Below, one piece after another: positions 26,602 to 40,049 of a DNA stretch of 64,000 bases (position 1 is the stretch's first letter; every line of letters starts with the position of its first letter). Both the position numbers and the translations under genes were made by a program. Where the stretch lies: assembly GCA_903895695.1 (NCBI GenBank), contig CAITUY010000165.1, forward strand, positions 1 through 64,000, read 5' to 3'. Below the pieces are notes generated by a model that had not been told where the DNA came from, ran no database searches, and saw only the letters and a program-made list of their open reading frames with translations. Source of the DNA: an uncultured bacterium. Its GTDB lineage: Bacteria > Verrucomicrobiota > Kiritimatiellia > CAIKKV01 > CAITUY01.

Positions 26602-28017
26602 CTACGCCGAGCACTCTTTCACCCGCACCACATGCGTGGCGCAGTCGAGACAGGGATCGAAGGAATGAATCACCCGCAGGGCCTCGATCGGCTGATCGGC
26701 ATTGGCGATCGGGGTGCCCAGCAGGGCCTGTTCCAGCGGCCCGCGCTGGCCGGACGTGTCCCGCGGCGAGCAATTCCAACACGTCGGCGTGATGATCTGG
26801 TAGTGCGCTATCGTGCCATTCGCGATCGCGAGCCAGTGCCCCAGCGCCCCGCGCGGCGCCTCGGTGAGCCCGATGGCCGTGGCCGTGGCCGGCACCGTGG
26901 GATGCGTGAAGGCCGGCGTGCCCACGGGCAGTTCGTTGAGCCAGCCTTGCATGGCCTGAGCGAGCTTCAGCGCCTCGCGTGCCCGGGCGACGTGCCGGTC
27001 CATGACCGACACGCCGTTCGAGTACTCGCCGTTCACGGTCATGCGAGCCAACGCGCCGACCTCGTAGCTGACGCCCCCGTAGCGCGGAGCCTTGAGCCAC
27101 GAGTAGGCGCCGGCCTTGGGGTGCTGCGCCACGGTATCGGCCACGGCCGGGTTCAGGTTGTTGGCCGAGTCGTCGTACCAGCCGTGGGTCACGAACTCGG
27201 TGATGGCGTTCGTGTCGACAGGAAGGACGCTGGGCGCCCCACGGGGAACCCGGCCCCTCGAGAAAAGCTTTGAACTTCCCGTGTCGTCGAGTTCAAACGC
27301 GCCGTATGCGAGGAGGTTACCGAACCCCTGGCCGACCGAGAAATAGTCGTCATAGATCGAGGCCAGCAACTCGGCATCCGGCACGAGCATCGAGGCGATG
27401 AAGTTCGTGATCTCCGTGAGGTACCCCTGGTAGGCGGCCTTGTCCTCGGCCTTGGCGACGGAGGTGACGCCCCCGGCGATGAAGGCCGGCGTGTGCGGCA
27501 GGCGCCCGGCCCAGATGGCCCCCATTTCGTGCGACTTGCGGCGGATATCGATGGCCGCGAGATAGTGGCCGATCAGCGCCGCAGCAACGGCCGGGTCGAT
27601 ACGGCGCCCCACGTTCCAACCCGGCGTCCAAGGCGCCATGCCGGGCCCCTGGACGTAGTCGGGCGCGGCGAGCAGATAGAAATGCAGGATGTGCGATTCC
27701 AGGAAACAGGCGCCATGGATCAGGTTACGGATGATCCGCGACGCTGCGGGCGGCGTTACCCCGCACGCCATGTCGAGGGTGTTCACTGCCGCCTGGGCGT
27801 GAGTCGTGGGGCAAACCCCGCAGATCCGCGACGTGATGATCGGCGCGTCACGGGGATCACGCTTCTCGAGAATCTTCTCGAAGCCGCGGAACAGGGTGCC
27901 GGCCGAGTGTGCGTCTACCACCTGTTGAACGCCGTTGACCGTATCGACTTGTATCTCGACCTTGAGATGGCCCTCAATCCGGGTGACCGGATCGACTGAC
28001 GCGGTAATCGTTGGCAT
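26602..28017 (-). CDS. [NiFe] hydrogenase large subunit
   Basis: The 471-residue protein starts at ATG 28017 with a strong GGAGGAG site (28025-28031). It begins with TRIEGHLKVEIQVD. The N-terminal nickel ligands are in RICGVCPTTH and the C-terminal pair in DPCLDCATH, followed by the 9-residue peptide VVRVKECSA that the maturation protease should remove. It oxidises or produces H2 with the small subunit. Order on the minus strand is small subunit, large subunit, protease. No cytochrome b or Hyp accessory genes are in the window. A longer start at 28050 is less likely. Confidence 0.95.
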   Translation of the reverse strand: MPTITASVDPVTRIEGHLKVEIQVDTVNGVQQVVDAHSAGTLFRGFEKILEKRDPRDAPIITSRICGVCPTTHAQAAVNTLDMACGVTPPAASRIIRNLIHGACFLESHILHFYLLAAPDYVQGPGMAPWTPGWNVGRRIDPAVAAALIGHYLAAIDIRRKSHEMGAIWAGRLPHTPAFIAGGVTSVAKAEDKAAYQGYLTEITNFIASMLVPDAELLASIYDDYFSVGQGFGNLLAYGAFELDDTGSSKLFSRGRVPRGAPSVLPVDTNAITEFVTHGWYDDSANNLNPAVADTVAQHPKAGAYSWLKAPRYGGVSYEVGALARMTVNGEYSNGVSVMDRHVARAREALKLAQAMQGWLNELPVGTPAFTHPTVPATATAIGLTEAPRGALGHWLAIANGTIAHYQIITPTCWNCSPRDTSGQRGPLEQALLGTPIANADQPIEALRVIHSFDPCLDCATHVVRVKECSA

Positions 28018-28219
28018 GCCAGTTCTCCTCCCCAGCAGAGAGCCCGGCAAACGACACTCCCCGGCTGTGTCGGCTACCGTATCGCCTGGGTACCTGCGTC
28101 GTAATCAGGGCATCCCGCAGATTGAGGGGTCAAACACCTTACAGAAGAGATGCCGCGCCCTCCCGAACCCTGGGTGGGGGGGTCGGGCAGAGGCGCGGCG
28201 GGGGTAATCAAAGAATCCG

Positions 28220-29131
28220 TCAGGCCGCCACGTAGAATGGCGAAGTGCCCGGAAAGGTCGGCTCCACACATCCCTGGCAGGGCGCGTTCACGCCGATGCA
28301 CCAGTGCCCGCTGCCGGCTTTCCCGTTCCAACAGTTCTCGCACTTGGAAAACGTAGTCGGTCCGCGGCAGCCCAGGTCCCGCAGGCAACGCCCGTCCTGT
28401 CCGAAATCGGTGGCCGCGGGCAGCCCGTTCGTGCGACGCGGACACTTGTCATGGATCGTGCCCTGGTTCTGGTACAGATCCACGGGACGGCCCATGCTGT
28501 CGAGCACGATGGGACCTCCGGTCAGGAGTTGCACGATCGGCCACAGCAGCCAGTCCGGATTGGCCGGGCAACCTGCGATGTTGACCGTGGTAATACCCGT
28601 CAGCTCCTTCACGCCGACCACCTTCGTCGGGTTGGGACCCGCGGCGGGAATACCGCCCCACGACGCGCAAGTTCCTGCACACACGACGTGACTGGCCCGC
28701 GCTGCATACTGCTTCACGGCGTCCTGAAAGGTCGTTTCCACGCCCTTGTAGCTGTAGGCGATGCAGGCATGCCCGTCGAATGCCGTCGGTATTCCGCCTT
28801 CCACCACCAGGATGTAGTTACCCTTCTCGTACGCCTGCCGCATGCCGGCCACCGCCGGCTCGCCGGCAAACGACATCACATTGCCGTGGTAGATCAGGTT
28901 GATGCTGTCGGTCAGCACCTCCGTTACCGTCTTCGGTGCCGAGTCCGAAATCCGGTTCAGGAGGGAAATCGAGCACCCGTCGCAGGAACTGCCCTTCAAC
29001 CAGATCACAACCGGCCCAGCCGGGTTGGCCAGCGCCTCTTGCAGCAGTCCCAACCGGAACGGGTCAAGCCACACTCCCAGCGCTCCCAGCGTGCAATAGC
29101 GCAGAAAATCCCGTCTTGTCGTGGTGATCAT
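28220..29131 (-). CDS. [NiFe] hydrogenase small subunit with Tat signal
   Basis: The 303-residue protein opens with a twin-arginine signal (TTRRDFLRYCTLGALGVWL). The iron-sulfur domain starts at VVIWLKGSSCDGCSISLLN. Cluster ligands are visible in GTCASWGGIPAAGPN, NIAGCPANPDW, the CLRDLGCRGP segment, CENCWNGKAGSGHWCIG and CQGCVEP. There is no C-terminal membrane anchor, so the enzyme is probably soluble in the periplasm or held by another subunit. The large subunit is carried across with it. The 202-bp gap to the large subunit shows no gene. tatA and tatC lie 7 kb away. Confidence 0.95.
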   Translation of the reverse strand: MITTTRRDFLRYCTLGALGVWLDPFRLGLLQEALANPAGPVVIWLKGSSCDGCSISLLNRISDSAPKTVTEVLTDSINLIYHGNVMSFAGEPAVAGMRQAYEKGNYILVVEGGIPTAFDGHACIAYSYKGVETTFQDAVKQYAARASHVVCAGTCASWGGIPAAGPNPTKVVGVKELTGITTVNIAGCPANPDWLLWPIVQLLTGGPIVLDSMGRPVDLYQNQGTIHDKCPRRTNGLPAATDFGQDGRCLRDLGCRGPTTFSKCENCWNGKAGSGHWCIGVNAPCQGCVEPTFPGTSPFYVAA

Positions 29132-29415
29132 GTCCTGGTCTTCCTTTCCGTCTTGTCTTCTCTTCAGTTCTATCGACGCCCACCCCTTGCGTCTTGGCGC
29201 TATTATCCCCCGACGGCCGTAGCAGGGGGAGAAGGAATAGCTACTAAAAATAGAACTTTTCTACGATTGCCCGTAGAGCGCCTCATTTGGCTGGACTATT
29301 CTGGCTGAATCAGGGCAATATCATTGTTGTAAATCTACATTTTCTGGTTCCGGCGGGGCAGGAGCGCGGGATCTTCTCGGAGCGGCACGTACCCTTGCAG
29401 GACGGGAAGAAAAGC

Positions 29416-30426
29416 ATGACAACGTCATTTGGCGAGCAGTTAATCACCGAAATCGAGAACAGCTCGTTGTTGTCCGGCCTTAACGTTCTGGGCAAACGCC
29501 TGCTCGGCCTGGGCGTGACTCTGATCGTCAAACGCGCGGGTGTTCCTTTCGAGTTTCATCCGGCGGGCACGGCGCCGGCCGTTCCGGAGTTCTGCCGCCT
29601 GATTGTCGGTGATGGTCAAGGGCAACGAAGGTGCATGATGTGCCATTCGCTGGTGTCGCTGTCTCCCCTGGAAGGAAATGTGGCCGAGTGTGCCTGCCAC
29701 AGCGGCGTCTGCATGATCCTGTCGCCGCTGACGTACGGGCGGAGCGAGGGGATCGACGAAATCCTGCTGACGACGGCGGGATTCAGACGGGGGCCGGCCG
29801 AACCGGGCTGGCGAAGCGTGCTGAAGTGTACCCGGGGGCTCGACATCAACCGACATCAATTGAGGGCGGCGTACGACGTACTGCCGGTTTTGGACGACGA
29901 CCGGTATTCCCTGGCTCTGACCTTGATGGAATGCGCGAGCAAGGCCATGGCGGAAGTCGGGAAACGTGTTCTTCTCGAGCGGGAGCTCGCCACCATCCGC
30001 GCCGCCGGGCCAGGCAGGACGCCTTCGACCTCAACCGTCGAGGACGAACTCCGGGCGGCCTTGTTTCTCGCGGAAGAGGCCGTGGAGAAGCGCCGGAAGA
30101 CGGCTTCCGTTTCGCCCCTGGTCCGGGTGGCCGCGGATGTCGTGGCGCGCCATCCGTCCCTGCCGTTCACGGTGGCGGCCATCGCGCGCGCCGAACGCAT
30201 CAGCCCGAACTATTTTTCCAACCTCTTCCACCGCCACATGGGTCAGAGTTTCAAACACTACCTGGATTCCGCCCGGTTGGGGCAGGCCGAAGCCTTGCTG
30301 CGCGATCTTAGCCTGAGCATCCAGGAAGTCGCCGCCAAGACAGGGTTCGAAGACGTCGGCTATTTCATCCGCTGGTTCAAGCGGAAACGCAAGACCACTC
30401 CCCTCGCCTGGCGCCGCACGCGATAG
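29416..30426 (+). CDS. AraC-family regulator with a cysteine-rich PocR-type sensor domain
   Basis: The 336-residue protein from ATG 29416 (MTTSFGEQLITEIENSSLLS) has an N-terminal PocR-like sensory domain. It carries a Cys/His cluster (CRLIVGDG, RRCMMCHS, ECACHSGVCMI) that could hold a metal or iron-sulfur centre. The C-terminal AraC double HTH is FTVAAIARAERISPNYFSNL followed by IQEVAAKTGFEDVGYFIRWF. The gene is divergent from the hydrogenase operon across 284 bp, so it is a candidate hydrogenase regulator; this is inferred from position. The frame is open from 29287, but residues upstream of this ATG show no domain. Confidence 0.85.
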   Translation: MTTSFGEQLITEIENSSLLSGLNVLGKRLLGLGVTLIVKRAGVPFEFHPAGTAPAVPEFCRLIVGDGQGQRRCMMCHSLVSLSPLEGNVAECACHSGVCMILSPLTYGRSEGIDEILLTTAGFRRGPAEPGWRSVLKCTRGLDINRHQLRAAYDVLPVLDDDRYSLALTLMECASKAMAEVGKRVLLERELATIRAAGPGRTPSTSTVEDELRAALFLAEEAVEKRRKTASVSPLVRVAADVVARHPSLPFTVAAIARAERISPNYFSNLFHRHMGQSFKHYLDSARLGQAEALLRDLSLSIQEVAAKTGFEDVGYFIRWFKRKRKTTPLAWRRTR

Positions 30427-32097: not shown

Positions 32098-34992
32098 ATG
32101 GCCGGCGGATTGTTAAGTGGCCAGTCGGATTATGTCCTCTGCGTTTACGGTCTGGCGTTCATACTCCTGACCGCGATTTGCGTCATTCTGCGACACGATC
32201 AGCCGCGCAACTTTCCCTGGATGAAGCTGGGGCTCTTCGGGCTGTGTCATGGGTTGCACGAGTGGCTGCAATTGCTGATCGTGCCGATGGGCGACAATCC
32301 GGCACTCGCCCTTGTGCGCCTGGGCCTCCTGACCCTGTCCTATCTCTTCCTGCTGGAATTCGGACGGGGAGGCTGGCTCGCGCTAGGCGGCAAATGCCCG
32401 GGCCGCTGGATTCATGTTCCCCTCCTCGCCGCCGCGCTAGCCGGCGGCCTCTGGGGATCGTCAGGTGCGAACGCGACGGTCCGGTACTTCCTGGGACTGC
32501 CCAGCGCCACCTGGGCCGCCTTGACCCTGCTCCGGGTCTCGCGCGGGAAAGGGCGGGCGATGCTGGGCTCGATCCTGGCCGCCACCGCGCTGCTTGGTTA
32601 CGCCATCGCGGCCGGGGCGGTTGCCCGCGAAGCCCCCTTTTTCCCGGCCTCGGTTCTCAACACCGCATCGTTCCTGGCGGCCACGGGGCTCCCCATTGAA
32701 GTCGTGCGGGCCGTCCTGGCCGTTCTCATCAGCGCTTCCCTGTGGGCCTATTACCAGCGGCGACCGCGGTATGTGCCAAGCATCGAACAGAGCCCCATTT
32801 CCTATCATGGCGCCCAGATGGTGGCCTCGCTGGCGGTCGTCCTGGTTGCCGGCTGGCTCGTGACGCAGACAGCGGGTAAGCATGCGGACCACGACATCCG
32901 GCAGGACATAGAGAGCCAGACGCGGGTCGCGGCGGCACTGATTGACCCGGGAGCCGTCCGCGCTTCGATGGCCACGGAGCCCTCCGAGCGCCGCGCGAAC
33001 GTGCAGCAATTCCAGCGACTGTTAACCGACGTGCTGAACGCAAGTCATCACTTCCGCTGGGTCCACGTGCTGACTCTCGACGCCGCCTCCAGCACCGTTG
33101 CCATTGTCGCCTCGGTTCCGGAGAGCAGCCCCGGCCACCCCTCGCCACATGGCACGCTCTATCGGAATCCGCCCCGGGAACTACTCGAGGCTTTCACGGG
33201 AACAACTCGGCTCGTCGGCCCCTACACCGACGAGACCGGAACCTACCTGACGGGCTTCGCCCCGGTGCGCGACGGCGCCACGGGAAAGGTGGCCGCCGTC
33301 ATCGCGCTCGACCTCAGCGCCGCTCAGTGGGAAAAGGACGTTGCCGAGATCCGGCTGGCGACCATCGCCGTCACGCTCCTGAGTGCGCTGCTGGTCATCG
33401 CGTTCTTCGTCCTGCGCCAGCGGTCCTGGGAATCGGCGACTCGCATCACGGCGAGCCAGTCCATGCTGGCGGAGGCCCAGGAAGTGGCCCACCTCGGCAG
33501 TTGGTCGTACGAGCCCGAGTCGGAACGCATGACCTGGTCACCGGAGATGTTCCGCATCCTGGGGTGTCGGCCCGCCGAGACCGCCCCATCCTATGCCTTA
33601 CACCAGCAGCGGATCGCACCTCAGGATCGCGGCCTGCTCGATGCCGCGATGCAGGCCGCCCTGAAGGACGGGACCGCCTTCGAAGTGGAGGTCCGCGCGA
33701 TCCGCCCCGACGGCACGACCCGGCACGTCGTTTCCAAGGCCGCGCCCAAACGCGACGCCAAGGGCCGTATCGCGCGTTTGGTCGGAACCCTCCAGGACGT
33801 CACCGACCGCAAACGCTCCGAGGCTGCTCTACAGCAGGAGCGCAATCTGCTGCGTACGCTGATCGACCGGCTACCGGATTTCATCTACGTGAAGGATCTC
33901 CACGGACGCTTCCTGGTCGCCAACTCCGCGGTGGCGAGATTCATGGGGGCGGCCTCCTCCGACGATCTTTTGGGCAAGACGGATGCCGACTTCTATCCCG
34001 CGGAACTGGCGGCGCAGTACATGATGGACGAACAGCGCATCTTCAACACCGGCGGCGCCCTGATCAACAAGGACGAGCCGCATGTCGACAAGAACGGCGT
34101 GCCCCACGCCGTGGTGACGACGAAGATCCCGATGCGGGATACCCAGGGGCAGGTCATCGGGCTGGTGGGCATCAGCCACGACATCACCGAACGCAAACTC
34201 GTCGAGGAAGAGATCCAGCGGCTGAACGCGAGCCTGGAGCGACGCGTGGCGGAACGGACCGCCGATCTCACGGCCGCCAACGCGGAGCTCGAGACCTTCA
34301 CCTACTCGGTTTCGCACGATCTGCGCGCGCCGCTGCGCCACATCATCGGATTCCTGGCGATGCTCAAGGCGGCCCTGTCGGCTCCGCGCGAGCCGAAGGC
34401 CGCGGACTACCTGCAGGACATCGAACGCGAGTCGGAACGCATGGCCGTGATGATCGAAGACCTGCTGGCTTTCTCGCGGCTCTCCCGTTCCGACTTGCAC
34501 AAGGGCCGCGTCAATCTCCAGACTCTGCTGGAAACGGCGCGGGCCCAGTTGAAACCCGAGACCACGGGACGCCGCATCGACTGGAATATCGGGGTTCTGC
34601 CGGAGGTGTTCGGCGACCCTGCCCTGCTCATGCAAGTCCTGGTCAACCTGCTCGACAATGCCGTCAAGTTCACGCGGCCCCGGGAGCAAGCCACGATCGA
34701 GGTCGGCAGCCGCAAAGAGCCGGACGAATGGGTGATCTACGTGCGCGACAACGGTGTCGGGTTCGACTCCACCTACTCCGGGAAGCTATTCGGGGCGTTC
34801 CAGCGACTGCACACGCGAACGCAGTTCGAGGGCACGGGCGTGGGCTTGGCCAACGTGCGGCGGATCATTCAACGCCACGGCGGTCGAACCTGGGCCGAAA
34901 GCGCCGAGGGCCACGGGGCGACTTTCTATTTCTCGTTGCCGCGGAACGCCGCGCCGCCCGATGACTCGACCGGCCCGGAGCGCCAATCATGA
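32098..34992 (+). CDS. Membrane sensor histidine kinase with two PAS domains
   Basis: The 964-residue protein has about eight N-terminal membrane helices (residues ~10-265). An extracytoplasmic sensor segment of ~150 residues follows (KHADHDIRQDIESQTRVAAALID...), then another helix (ATIAVTLLSALLVIAFFVL). Two PAS domains lie at ~460-575 and ~590-700. A coiled linker leads to the kinase: SVSHDLRAPLRH with H740 as the phosphate acceptor, N-box NLLDNAVKF, VRDNGVGFD and GTGVGLANVRRII. This is the phytochrome-type (HWE-free) HisKA class often paired with Rcp-type regulators. AAGGAGG precedes the ATG. It overlaps the response regulator by 4 bp. Confidence 0.93.
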   Translation: MAGGLLSGQSDYVLCVYGLAFILLTAICVILRHDQPRNFPWMKLGLFGLCHGLHEWLQLLIVPMGDNPALALVRLGLLTLSYLFLLEFGRGGWLALGGKCPGRWIHVPLLAAALAGGLWGSSGANATVRYFLGLPSATWAALTLLRVSRGKGRAMLGSILAATALLGYAIAAGAVAREAPFFPASVLNTASFLAATGLPIEVVRAVLAVLISASLWAYYQRRPRYVPSIEQSPISYHGAQMVASLAVVLVAGWLVTQTAGKHADHDIRQDIESQTRVAAALIDPGAVRASMATEPSERRANVQQFQRLLTDVLNASHHFRWVHVLTLDAASSTVAIVASVPESSPGHPSPHGTLYRNPPRELLEAFTGTTRLVGPYTDETGTYLTGFAPVRDGATGKVAAVIALDLSAAQWEKDVAEIRLATIAVTLLSALLVIAFFVLRQRSWESATRITASQSMLAEAQEVAHLGSWSYEPESERMTWSPEMFRILGCRPAETAPSYALHQQRIAPQDRGLLDAAMQAALKDGTAFEVEVRAIRPDGTTRHVVSKAAPKRDAKGRIARLVGTLQDVTDRKRSEAALQQERNLLRTLIDRLPDFIYVKDLHGRFLVANSAVARFMGAASSDDLLGKTDADFYPAELAAQYMMDEQRIFNTGGALINKDEPHVDKNGVPHAVVTTKIPMRDTQGQVIGLVGISHDITERKLVEEEIQRLNASLERRVAERTADLTAANAELETFTYSVSHDLRAPLRHIIGFLAMLKAALSAPREPKAADYLQDIERESERMAVMIEDLLAFSRLSRSDLHKGRVNLQTLLETARAQLKPETTGRRIDWNIGVLPEVFGDPALLMQVLVNLLDNAVKFTRPREQATIEVGSRKEPDEWVIYVRDNGVGFDSTYSGKLFGAFQRLHTRTQFEGTGVGLANVRRIIQRHGGRTWAESAEGHGATFYFSLPRNAAPPDDSTGPERQS

Positions 34993-35514: not shown

Positions 35515-38511
35515 ATGGATGCGCAACTGATGATTCTCTATGTCGAGGACGATCCGCTCGACGTCAAACTGGTCCGTGAGACGCTGGGTTCGGAAGGACT
35601 GGCCTGCGAAATTGTCTCCGTCGAAACGCGTGAAGACTTCGCCCGCGCGCTGAAGACGGGCCGGTTCCAGGCTATCCTGGCGGACTACCGGCTGCCCGGC
35701 TACAGCGGCAGGGACGCGCTCGCCCAGGCGCGGGCCGCCCAGCCCGAGATCCCGTTCATCTTCGTCACCGGCGCGATCGGCGAAGAAGAGGCCATCGAAC
35801 TGCTCAAACAGGGGGCCACCGATTACGTGCTGAAGAACCGGCTCAGCCGCCTGGCACCCGCGGTGCGCCGCGCCCTCAAAGGCGCCGCGGACCAGAAACA
35901 CCGCCGTGAGGCGGCCCGCGAATTGAAAGAATCCAACCTGCGTCTGACCGGGGTTCTGGAGAGCATCACCGGCCTGCTGGAACGCCTGTTCGAGAACACG
36001 CACGTCCTGATCGCGCACCTTGACTCCGACTTCAACTTTCTGCGCGTCAACCGGGCCTACGCGCAGGCCAATCAGCGCGAACTCGACTTCTTCGCCGGCA
36101 AGAACTACTTCGTCCTCCACGCCAACCCCGAGACCCGGGAACTCTTCACGCGGGTGCTGGCGACCGGGGAACCGTATTTCGCCAAGGCGAAAGCCTGGGA
36201 GCCGCTCGTCCCGCGGGCGCGCGGCGAAGCCCTCTGGAACTGGAGCGTCGAGCCCGTGCGCAACGAGCGCGGCCAGGTCGAGGGACTGCTGCTCTGCCTG
36301 CTCGACGTGACCCGGCACAAGCAATCCCAGAGGGACCGGGTGGCGAGCGAACGCAAATACCGCGAGCTGGTCGAGAACGTGGACAGCATCATCATGCGGT
36401 GGAAGCCTGACGGAACCATCACGTTCGCCAATCGCTTCGCCAGGCAGTTCTTCGGTTATCCGAAAGAAGGACTCGTCGGCGCCAACGCGGTCGGGACCAT
36501 CTTCTCAGAGAAGGATGCCGGCGCCCGGCCGCTGCCCCAGGTCACCGTCGCCGGAATTCCGCCCGGCCTGCACGATACCTGCGAAGGGGAGTGCATGCGT
36601 CGCGACGGCACCCGCGTGTGGATCCGCTGGACCTCCCGCAGCAACCCGGGGGCCGATCGCGCTGCGGCCGAAATCCTGTGCGTCGGCAGCGATATCACGG
36701 ACCGGAAACGAAAAGAACTCGAGATGGAACGCATCCAAAAGGACCTGCGGGCCTTTGCGCGAACGATGGGTACGTCCCTGCACGGCCGGGCCGTCTCCCC
36801 GGGCCTGGCGGAGGGCGTGGCGCTGCTCTATGCCGGGCCGGAAAGCCAGCTCGGTGTCGCGCAGCCCATTGCCCCGGCCGAAGTAGACACCGAAGTGGGA
36901 CGGTTCGAGCATGCCCTGGCCGCCTCGGTGCGCGAGTTGGAAGAAATCCGCAAGCACTTCCTGACGGAGCTGGCGGAGGAGGAAACCGCCATCATCGACG
37001 TGCACCTGGCGATGCTGAAAGACGCCTCGTTTGCCGAAAAATGCAAGCGGCGCGTCCGCGACGACCTCGTCAAGGTCGAGCATGCCGTGGCCTCGGAGGT
37101 GAAGGACCTGGAAACGCTGCTGAAGGGCCTGAAGCAGGAAGTCATGCGCCAGCGTAGTGCCGATGTACGCGACATAGGGCGCCGCGTCTTAAGCAACCTC
37201 AGGGGACAATCGGCGCCGCTTTCGCGGCGCCTGGCCTCGCTGCCGCCGAACACGATCCTCGTCGCCGATCGCCTGCTGCCCTCCGACACACTGGAGTTCG
37301 ACCGCCGCAACGTGGCTGCGTTCGTCACCGAGCAGGATGGGCCCTCGTCCCATGTCGCCATCCTGGCCAGGGCCATGGGCATTCCCGCGATCTGCGATGT
37401 CAGCAAGGCCACGTCGTTGCTGGCGACCGGCGATCACCTGCTGGTGGATGCGGAAGCGGGCACGGTCACCGTGGCCCCGACCAAGTCCCAGACCGTGCGC
37501 TTCGCGGCCCGGAAGGCTCAATATGCCGCGTATATGGCCACGGCCGACCGCGAGGCGGCCCGGGGCTGCACGACGCGGGACGGCGTGTCTCTCCGCCTCT
37601 ATGCCAACATCGGGCGTCCCGACGAAGCGCACCTCGTGCTGGAGAATCAGTTGGAGGGCGTCGGCCTGTTCCGCTCCGAGTACCTGTTCCTCGACGTCGA
37701 ACAGCCGCCGGACCTGGACGTCCAGCGCGAAGCCTATGGCGCGGTCGCCCGCACGCTCCGGCCCCACCCCGTGGTCATTCGCACCATGGACCTGGGCGGA
37801 GACAAGATTCCGCGCTTCGCCAAGACCGACAAGGATTTGAAACTGCGCATGGGCCGGCGCGGGCTGGCCTACTCTCTCGCCGAAAGGACGTTGTTCCACA
37901 CCCAGATCCAAGCCATCCTGCGGTCCACAAAGGAAGGCGACGTGCGCCTCATGTTTCCCATGGTCCTGGACGTCGCCGATCTACGGGAGGCGCGCCGGCA
38001 GGTCGAGGAGGTGGCCGCCGCCGAGCAAACCGGGAAGCCGCCCGCCATCGGCGCCATGATCGAGACACCGTCGGCTGGCTTCGCCATTCATGAAATTGTG
38101 GAAATAGCGGACTTCATCAGCATCGGCACCAACGACCTGGCCCAGTATCTCCTGGCCATCGACCGCTCGGCCCCGGAGTTGGCGGGCGCGCGCTCATTTC
38201 TGCACCCGAGCGTGCTGAGGGCCACGGACCAGGTCGTGCGGGCCGCGCGGGAACACGCGGTGGACATCTCCGTATGCGGCGAGGCTGCAGGCGAGCCGAC
38301 GACCGCCTTCCTGCTCGTGGGGATGGGCGTTCGCGACCTGAGCATGAGTCCCTTTCTCGCCGCCCGGGTGCGGCAGGTCATGCAACACACGACAATCGGC
38401 GAGGCCGAGCAAGCCGCCCGTGATGCCCTGGCCGCTTCCACGCTGGAAGACGTCCAAGCCATCGTCGCCGCTGCCCTGGGCGACAAGGGATTCGTGCCCA
38501 TCGAAAAGTAG
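35515..38511 (+). CDS. REC-PAS-PAS-PTS Enzyme I fusion protein
   Basis: The 998-residue protein begins at ATG 35515. Residues 1-120 are a receiver domain (LMILYVEDDPLDVKLVRETL, AILADYRLPGYSG, TDYVLKNRL). PAS domains follow at ~155-270 and ~281-405. From ~424 a complete phosphoenolpyruvate-protein phosphotransferase (Enzyme I) follows: GRAVSPGLAEGVALL, the phosphohistidine H613 in DGPSSHVAILARAMGIPA, LFRSEYLFLD, RTMDLGGDKIPR, AMIETPSAGF, SIGTNDLAQYLLAIDR, and the catalytic C921 in VCGEAAGEP. All expected Enzyme I residues seem present. It sits 19 bp after the response regulator. No HPr or EII gene is in the window. It may link two-component input to PEP-driven phosphotransfer, as EI-Ntr (PtsP, GAF-EI) does. 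Confidence 0.88.
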   Translation: MDAQLMILYVEDDPLDVKLVRETLGSEGLACEIVSVETREDFARALKTGRFQAILADYRLPGYSGRDALAQARAAQPEIPFIFVTGAIGEEEAIELLKQGATDYVLKNRLSRLAPAVRRALKGAADQKHRREAARELKESNLRLTGVLESITGLLERLFENTHVLIAHLDSDFNFLRVNRAYAQANQRELDFFAGKNYFVLHANPETRELFTRVLATGEPYFAKAKAWEPLVPRARGEALWNWSVEPVRNERGQVEGLLLCLLDVTRHKQSQRDRVASERKYRELVENVDSIIMRWKPDGTITFANRFARQFFGYPKEGLVGANAVGTIFSEKDAGARPLPQVTVAGIPPGLHDTCEGECMRRDGTRVWIRWTSRSNPGADRAAAEILCVGSDITDRKRKELEMERIQKDLRAFARTMGTSLHGRAVSPGLAEGVALLYAGPESQLGVAQPIAPAEVDTEVGRFEHALAASVRELEEIRKHFLTELAEEETAIIDVHLAMLKDASFAEKCKRRVRDDLVKVEHAVASEVKDLETLLKGLKQEVMRQRSADVRDIGRRVLSNLRGQSAPLSRRLASLPPNTILVADRLLPSDTLEFDRRNVAAFVTEQDGPSSHVAILARAMGIPAICDVSKATSLLATGDHLLVDAEAGTVTVAPTKSQTVRFAARKAQYAAYMATADREAARGCTTRDGVSLRLYANIGRPDEAHLVLENQLEGVGLFRSEYLFLDVEQPPDLDVQREAYGAVARTLRPHPVVIRTMDLGGDKIPRFAKTDKDLKLRMGRRGLAYSLAERTLFHTQIQAILRSTKEGDVRLMFPMVLDVADLREARRQVEEVAAAEQTGKPPAIGAMIETPSAGFAIHEIVEIADFISIGTNDLAQYLLAIDRSAPELAGARSFLHPSVLRATDQVVRAAREHAVDISVCGEAAGEPTTAFLLVGMGVRDLSMSPFLAARVRQVMQHTTIGEAEQAARDALAASTLEDVQAIVAAALGDKGFVPIEK

Positions 38512-38525
38512 CGGGGACCACCTCC

Positions 38526-40049
38526 ATGTGGCGATACCTGATGACGAGCCCCGACGGCGCGGCCGGGTGCCTGCTCTCGCGCTGGATCTTCCTGCGCGCC
38601 CTGGGGCTGATCTGCCTGGTGGCGTTTGTCTCGTTCTGGATACAGGCCAAGGGGCTGGTTGGCAGCGCGGGCATCCTGCCGATGGGCCAGTATCTTCAGG
38701 CGGCGCGCGACCAGCTCGGGCCGTTACGTTTCTGGCGCTGCCCGACGGTCTTCTGGCTGAGTTCGAGCGATGCCGCCATCCATGTCGTTTGCGCCGTGGG
38801 CGTCGTCGCGTCATTAATGCTGATGATGGGCCTGGCGCCGGTCCCCGCGCTGATCGCGCTCTGGGCGCTCTATCTCTCGATCTCCGTCGCAGGCCAGGCA
38901 TTCATGTCGTTCCAATGGGATACGCTGCTGATTGAAACGTGCTTCCTCGCCATCTTCCTGGCTCCCCCGCAATGGCTTCCCGGCCTCGCGCGCGAGGGGC
39001 TGGCCCCGCGCGCGGCCCAGTTCCTTCTCTGGTGGCTGCTCTTCCGGCTCATGTTCGAGTCCGGTGCGGTGAAACTCACCAGCGGCGACATGACGTGGCG
39101 CAACCTGACGGCGCTCGATTACCACTACTTCTCGCAGCCGCTCCCCACCTGGATCGGGTGGTACGCCTACCACCTGCCGCCCTGGTTCAACCGCCTGTCG
39201 ATCCTGGTCGTCTACGCGATCGAGATCGGGCTCCCCCTGCTGATCTTTGCAGGGCCGGGCCCACGCCTGGCGGCGTGTTGCGGCATCATCTTGCTGAACG
39301 TCCTGATCCTGATCACGGGGAACTACACGTTCTTCAACCTGCTGGCCATCGCGTTGTCGTTATTCCTTGTCGGCGATGCGGCCTGGGCGCGTGTTCTGCC
39401 GGAGAAGTTCCTGAATGCGGCCGGCTACGCGGCCGGCAATCACCCGCCCGCCGGGACAGTCCATGTCGCATTGACGCTCGTCGTCGCCCTGCTGTTCGCT
39501 GTCGTCGGGATCCTCCAGGTGCTTTCATCCATCGCCCCCCGCGACCGCAGCCTGCGCCTGGCCGAGTACCGGCTCAACGTCCTCGGGTCTCTTCGTACGC
39601 TCAACGGCTACGGGCTCTTCCGCGTGATGACGACCCGCCGCCTGGAAATCGAGATCGAGGGCAGCAACGACGGGCACCGCTGGCTGCCGTACGAGTTCAG
39701 GTACAAACCCGACGATCCCGGCCGGCGTCCCGGCTTCGTCGAACCGCACCAACCCCGGCTGGACTGGCAAATGTGGTTCGCTGCCTTGAGTTCATTTGAA
39801 GAGGAAGCCTGGTTTCAACAATTCCTGCTCGCCGTCCTGGAAGGGCGGCAGGACGCGCTGGCCCTGCTGCGCACCAATCCGTTCCCGGACGCGCCACCCC
39901 GTTTTGTCAGGGCGGAATTATACGATTACGTGCCGACCTCCCTGGCCGAGCGCCACCACACAGGGGCGTGGTGGAAACGCACGCTCCTGGGCGCCTACTC
40001 CCCCACCCTTCAACGCCGCAACAGGCCCATGTCCGAGGACATGCCGTAA
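38526..40049 (+). CDS. Lipase maturation factor-like membrane protein
   Basis: The 507-residue protein has many membrane helices and the LMF1 family features: LSRWIFLRALGLICLVAFVS, GSAGILP, FQWDTLLIETCFLAIFLAP, RLMFESGAVKLTSGDMTWRNLTALDYHYFSQPLPTW, and a C-terminal soluble part. That part reads RTLNGYGLFRVMTTRRLEIEIEGSNDG, then PRLDWQMWFAAL. In animals LMF1 helps lipases fold in the ER; bacterial members are of unknown function. The gene follows the Enzyme I fusion by 14 bp and leads into the isochorismatase gene (9-bp gap), so it is in the same transcription unit. Confidence 0.88.
   Translation: MWRYLMTSPDGAAGCLLSRWIFLRALGLICLVAFVSFWIQAKGLVGSAGILPMGQYLQAARDQLGPLRFWRCPTVFWLSSSDAAIHVVCAVGVVASLMLMMGLAPVPALIALWALYLSISVAGQAFMSFQWDTLLIETCFLAIFLAPPQWLPGLAREGLAPRAAQFLLWWLLFRLMFESGAVKLTSGDMTWRNLTALDYHYFSQPLPTWIGWYAYHLPPWFNRLSILVVYAIEIGLPLLIFAGPGPRLAACCGIILLNVLILITGNYTFFNLLAIALSLFLVGDAAWARVLPEKFLNAAGYAAGNHPPAGTVHVALTLVVALLFAVVGILQVLSSIAPRDRSLRLAEYRLNVLGSLRTLNGYGLFRVMTTRRLEIEIEGSNDGHRWLPYEFRYKPDDPGRRPGFVEPHQPRLDWQMWFAALSSFEEEAWFQQFLLAVLEGRQDALALLRTNPFPDAPPRFVRAELYDYVPTSLAERHHTGAWWKRTLLGAYSPTLQRRNRPMSEDMP

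Follow-up and report, generated by a model that had tools for sequence, protein, structure and literature searches.

A single gene in the 64,000-nucleotide stretch of DNA analysed here (the window) joins a receiver domain (REC) and two PAS domains to a complete Enzyme I (EI) of the PTS. We consider it probable, at roughly 0.6, that the product is an accessory, signal-gated EI that would feed an HPr/EIIA(Ntr) relay in a PtsP-like manner, with REC and PAS input in place of GAF. This reading is favored because the domains and residues are conserved, the gene belongs to a tight run of histidine kinase (HK), response regulator (RR) and EI genes, partner proteins are encoded in the same genome, and the protein belongs to a clade in which all members are fused, as opposed to the standalone EIs outside it. 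A regulatory EI with a sensory end is already known in PtsP. What appears new is a regulatory EI with a REC-PAS-PAS sensor end, within a sensor-fused EI clade that was not found singled out in the literature searched.

Table 1. Positions in the window of the REC-PAS-PAS-EI gene, its domains and the two genes preceding it (aa, residues of the protein)
Feature	Position	Strand	Basis
Membrane PAS-PAS histidine kinase (HisKA, HATPase_c), likely partner	32098..34992	+	Pfam; adjacency
Stand-alone Rcp-type receiver protein, 168 aa	34989..35495	+	Pfam Response_reg E 5.6e-19
REC-PAS-PAS-Enzyme I fusion gene, 998 aa	35515..38511	+	Single frame, Pfam domain order, TIGR01417 above cut-off
Receiver domain, aa 7-109, phospho-acceptor D57 with D12, D13, T85, K107	35533..35841	+	Pfam Response_reg E 6.5e-16
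PAS domain 1, aa 159-269	35989..36321	+	Pfam PAS_4 E 4.3e-15
PAS domain 2, aa 281-394	36355..36696	+	Pfam PAS E 1.3e-12
Linker helix, aa 395-421, PAS DIT motif to EI	36697..36777	+	Linker alignment; model helix 396-418
EI N-terminal (HPr-docking helical) domain, aa 423-547	36781..37155	+	Pfam PEP-utilisers_N E 9e-23
EI phosphohistidine domain, aa 577-649, active H613	37243..37461	+	Pfam PEP-utilizers E 8e-23; H613 = E. coli H189
EI PEP-binding barrel, aa 684-959, R720 R756 R782 E850 N873 D874 R884 C921	37564..38391	+	PEP-utilizers_C E 1.1e-78; residue map to 2hwg

The gene is one open frame from ATG to stop, and a GAGGAGA motif precedes its start codon. TIGR01417 (PTS_I_fam) scores 438 bits over aa 422-984 of the protein, above its cut-off of 342, and the match spans all three EI domains. 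Together with the open frame and the order of the Pfam domains, this bears out the sequence-only reading of a receiver and two PAS domains ahead of a complete EI. In an alignment with E. coli EI (2hwg), H189, R296, R332 and R358 correspond to H613, R720, R756 and R782 of the fusion protein, and E431, N454, D455, R465 and C502 correspond to E850, N873, D874, R884 and C921. The catalytic positions compared are thus all conserved (9/9), and the residue numbers given earlier for H613 and C921 were correct. A decoy EI with a dead active site was ruled out, as every catalytic residue checked is conserved. The receiver carries the residue set of a response regulator, with its acidic pair, phospho-accepting aspartate, threonine and lysine all present (Table 1). 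The AF2 model, informative for the EI part only because its alignment is one sequence deep (the query alone) over REC and PAS, has a pLDDT near 90 in the EI part and includes the linker helix. In a Foldseek search with this model, full-length EI structures rank first, and the solved EI 2wqd has a TM score of 0.89 by target length.

The EI gene is the third in a tight run in which the last 4 bases of the HK gene are shared with the RR gene and 19 bases lie between the RR gene and the EI gene. Its position directly after a histidine kinase and an Rcp-type regulator had been read correctly from the sequence. A lipase-maturation-factor-like gene (38526-40049) starts 14 bases after the EI gene, and the run may continue into it. 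A scan of promoters and terminators gave matches at chance level, and Rfam had no match anywhere in the window. Some 3 kb before the HK gene, the minus strand carries genes that resemble, by eye, the large and small subunits of a NiFe hydrogenase (26602-29131), beside which lies a gene for a PocR-AraC regulator (29395-30423).

The source genome, a MAG of 6.34 Mb in 250 contigs (95% complete, 2% contaminated), encodes four EIs, namely the window protein and three others on contigs C94, C6 and C197. The EI on C94 is the housekeeping ptsI, adjoining an HPr gene (ptsH). The genes preceding it, recognized by eye, are presumably lptB, hpf and hprK. An lptB-hpf-hprK-like layout near HPr and EI is familiar from regulatory PTS clusters. 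The sequence-only reading had noted no HPr or EII near the fusion gene and had proposed a search of the genome for HPr and EIIA-Ntr. None is indeed nearby, but five HPrs and five EIIA_2 (EIIA(Ntr)-type) proteins are encoded elsewhere in the genome. EIIC (PF02378) and EIIA-man (PF03610), the two transporter families searched for, have zero matches in this genome, which suggests that its PTS is likely regulatory.

Several of these PTS proteins are themselves fused to other domains. Four atypical EIIAs were scanned; HTH_17 is present in two of them and a zinc ribbon in one. The two HTH_17-EIIA_2 fusions (L032:8185-8862, plus strand, and L034:8351-9058, minus strand) are possible PTS-controlled transcription factors. 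One of their genes heads a run of membrane proteins that resemble, by eye, subunits of hydrogenase-4 or complex I, and the other lies near a similar run. In the third (L033:7261-8094, plus strand), a Zn_ribbon_9 zinc ribbon is fused to EIIA_2. In an HPr on contig C116 (L008:1453-2223, plus strand), the fusion partner is a glycogen-binding domain of the AMPK type (E 1e-23 for PTS-HPr and 1e-13 for AMPK1_CBM). An orphan HPr gene (L007:1477-1935, minus strand) is convergent with the gene of a multi-PAS HisKA_3 histidine kinase (L027:10312-11991, plus strand). The genome also encodes a very divergent EI (L025:12741-14585, plus strand), near which no HPr was seen.

When named genomes were scanned with the EI part of the protein, nine loci (G101, G209, G311, L071-L074, L076 and L077) proved 55-62% identical to the window EI, after which identity drops to 40%. 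Three of the nine coincide with the genes of G209, G311 and G101, which belong to the window protein's own class. The hosts include Syntrophaceae, other Deltaproteobacteria, three Accumulibacter, a Lentisphaerae MAG and a Verrucomicrobia MAG, and the members are thus scattered over Verrucomicrobiota, Deltaproteobacteria and Accumulibacter. In a tree, the window EI and its nine relatives form one clade of ten rows (SH-aLRT 100), with the window protein as sister to the other nine (SH-aLRT 99), a placement by a quick tree method that is to be read with care. The next rows outside the clade (G966, G059, G159 and G245) are standalone EIs that start at or near the EI domain. In contrast, all ten clade members have an N-terminal addition. 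The relatives resemble the window protein in having the same EI start after the linker and in being accessory to a housekeeping EI. They differ from it in their N-termini of about 100-140 aa, which have no Pfam match and contain hydrophobic stretches by eye, of the membrane type; only the window protein has REC-PAS-PAS. The N-terminus of L074 is shorter and different-looking relative to the others. The N-terminus of the G209 EI resembles that of the HK just upstream, a weak similarity (E 2e-6 by BLAST within a set of six sequences) that is indicative only. The HPr-docking domain was found in all clade members scanned. A standalone EI encoded by a member of the Accumulibacter order (L194:4128-5972, minus strand), 46% identical to the window EI, is a possible link from ordinary EIs to the sensor-fused clade.

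In the linker alignment, the helix of PAS2 continues without a gap into the EI start common to the clade, with the junction at about aa 411. This suggests that sensor ends were gained or exchanged at one point. Two-component genes adjoin the EI gene in three of the ten clade members, all of one class, an association that is suggestive only. Apart from the window, these are G311, in which a receiver gene immediately precedes the EI gene on the same strand, and G209, in which HK and receiver genes do so. Genomes G209, G478 and G480 each encode one HPr and two EIs, and G476 encodes one HPr and three EIs; these counts rest partly on incomplete genomes (G209 is 82% complete). The single HPr gene adjoins another EI and never the clade member, so that the clade EI, if it uses HPr, must share that HPr.

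The search turned up a single case of the exact REC-PAS-PAS-EI arrangement, in one MAG. No second case was present among 346 genomes of the class and 194 of the phylum, among 395 genomes of the phylum of G476 and 399 of the order of G477, or among 80 named loci, and no plasmid record covers 80% of the fusion-protein query. A published description of REC-EI or PAS-EI was not found either, which is weak evidence of absence in a search mostly without subscription papers; the text of Comas et al. 2008 mentions no response regulator or receiver (PMC2405797).

According to Comas et al. 2008 (PMC2405797), EI exists on its own, as EI-Ntr, and joined to HPr or IIA. The earlier statement that EI is alone or carries GAF was therefore too narrow, as multiphosphoryl transfer proteins also join it to HPr and IIA. 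Such proteins (IIA-HPr-EI, FruB type) likewise contain a fused EI, but their partners belong to the sugar-uptake PTS relay, whereas those in the window protein are signalling domains. Membership in this group was rejected, since Pfam finds no HPr or EIIA domain in the chain. In PtsP, reported from Proteobacteria only (PMC2405797), an N-terminal GAF domain controls EI autophosphorylation; glutamine and 2-oxoglutarate act through this domain, and glutamine on GAF is inhibitory (PMC4848567; review PMC13104625). PtsP/EI-Ntr and the window protein are alike as regulatory EIs with an N-terminal sensory region, but the latter has REC and two PAS domains and, by Pfam, no GAF. With this lack of GAF and 310.9 bits for NF008283 against a cut-off of 583, membership in PtsP was rejected. 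REC-PAS-PAS is a common input arrangement, found with HisKA, MCPsignal or DUF835 outputs in the available part of an archaeal census (PMC5847659). The window protein has the same input order, and Enzyme I is not among the outputs listed in that part.

The best-supported reading is that a two-component signal would control PEP-driven phosphotransfer by the fusion protein, because two of the nine relatives have a receiver gene directly upstream and gating by GAF is known in PtsP. The upstream HK, directly or through the stand-alone receiver, would place phosphate on D57, and the two PAS domains would sense a second cue. The resulting change could pass along the PAS-EI linker helix and alter EI dimerization or domain swivel, which would raise or lower PEP-dependent autophosphorylation at H613. 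Phosphorylated EI would then donate to an HPr, either one that also serves the housekeeping EI or an orphan, and from HPr phosphate would reach outputs of the EIIA(Ntr) type, of which two have DNA-binding domains. Given the gating precedent of PtsP and the common REC-PAS-PAS input, this is the most likely working of the protein. We infer the gating, its sign, the pairing of HK and REC, the HPr partner and the outputs.

The receiver could also serve as a dimerization or docking device only. PAS would then be the main gate, with a ligand or a redox change as its cue, and in relatives this role would fall to the membrane end; the receiver would be a docking or dimerization module tied to the HK. 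Clade members without REC still hold a sensory or membrane-type N-terminus, and PAS2 is 42-45% identical to PAS domains that precede histidine kinase cores in the same genome, both of which fit such a gate. However, the receiver has all the residues needed for phosphorylation and adjoins an HK gene, and we consider this explanation unlikely. Signal flow in reverse, in which the protein reports the PEP/pyruvate state to the two-component system and EI phosphorylation alters REC-PAS or the HK, appears improbable. Both signal types are combined in one chain with an HK next door, and in other bacteria sensor kinases, KdpD and PhoR among them, are under the control of PtsN, as cited in PMC13104625. 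Against it stand the intact HPr-docking domain, the HPr partners in the genome, and the N-terminal location of the sensors, which is the usual place for inputs.

The catalytic residues are the same as in ordinary EIs, as would be expected of a constitutive paralogue whose N-terminal domains have little effect. Yet a housekeeping ptsI already lies beside ptsH, and extra N-terminal modules occur throughout the clade, which makes such a paralogue quite improbable. An artefact of assembly or gene fusion in one MAG is very improbable, even though a single copy was found and the assembly consists of 250 contigs. G+C and third-position G+C are even over the PAS/EI junction and the whole gene, which argues against an assembly chimera, and codon use is likewise even. 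The frame is continuous through the linker, whose helix meets the clade EI start without a gap, and the window contains no N.

Bacteria have two big phosphotransfer networks, the PTS and the two-component systems, and most of the links known between them are at the output end, through the action of PtsN on sensor kinases. With a receiver on the entry enzyme EI, the two would be linked directly at the input. The fused EI also suggests what the numerous PTS proteins of bacteria that lack sugar-PTS transporters may do. More broadly, Enzyme I may be a general signalling output domain, a tentative proposal to which we give slightly under even odds. A mobile cross-phylum clade with exchanged sensor ends (membrane, REC-PAS-PAS) would feed two-component and membrane signals, as PEP phosphate, into a shared HPr/EIIA relay ending in HTH-EIIA transcription factors. 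If this is true, the two-component and PTS networks would merge.
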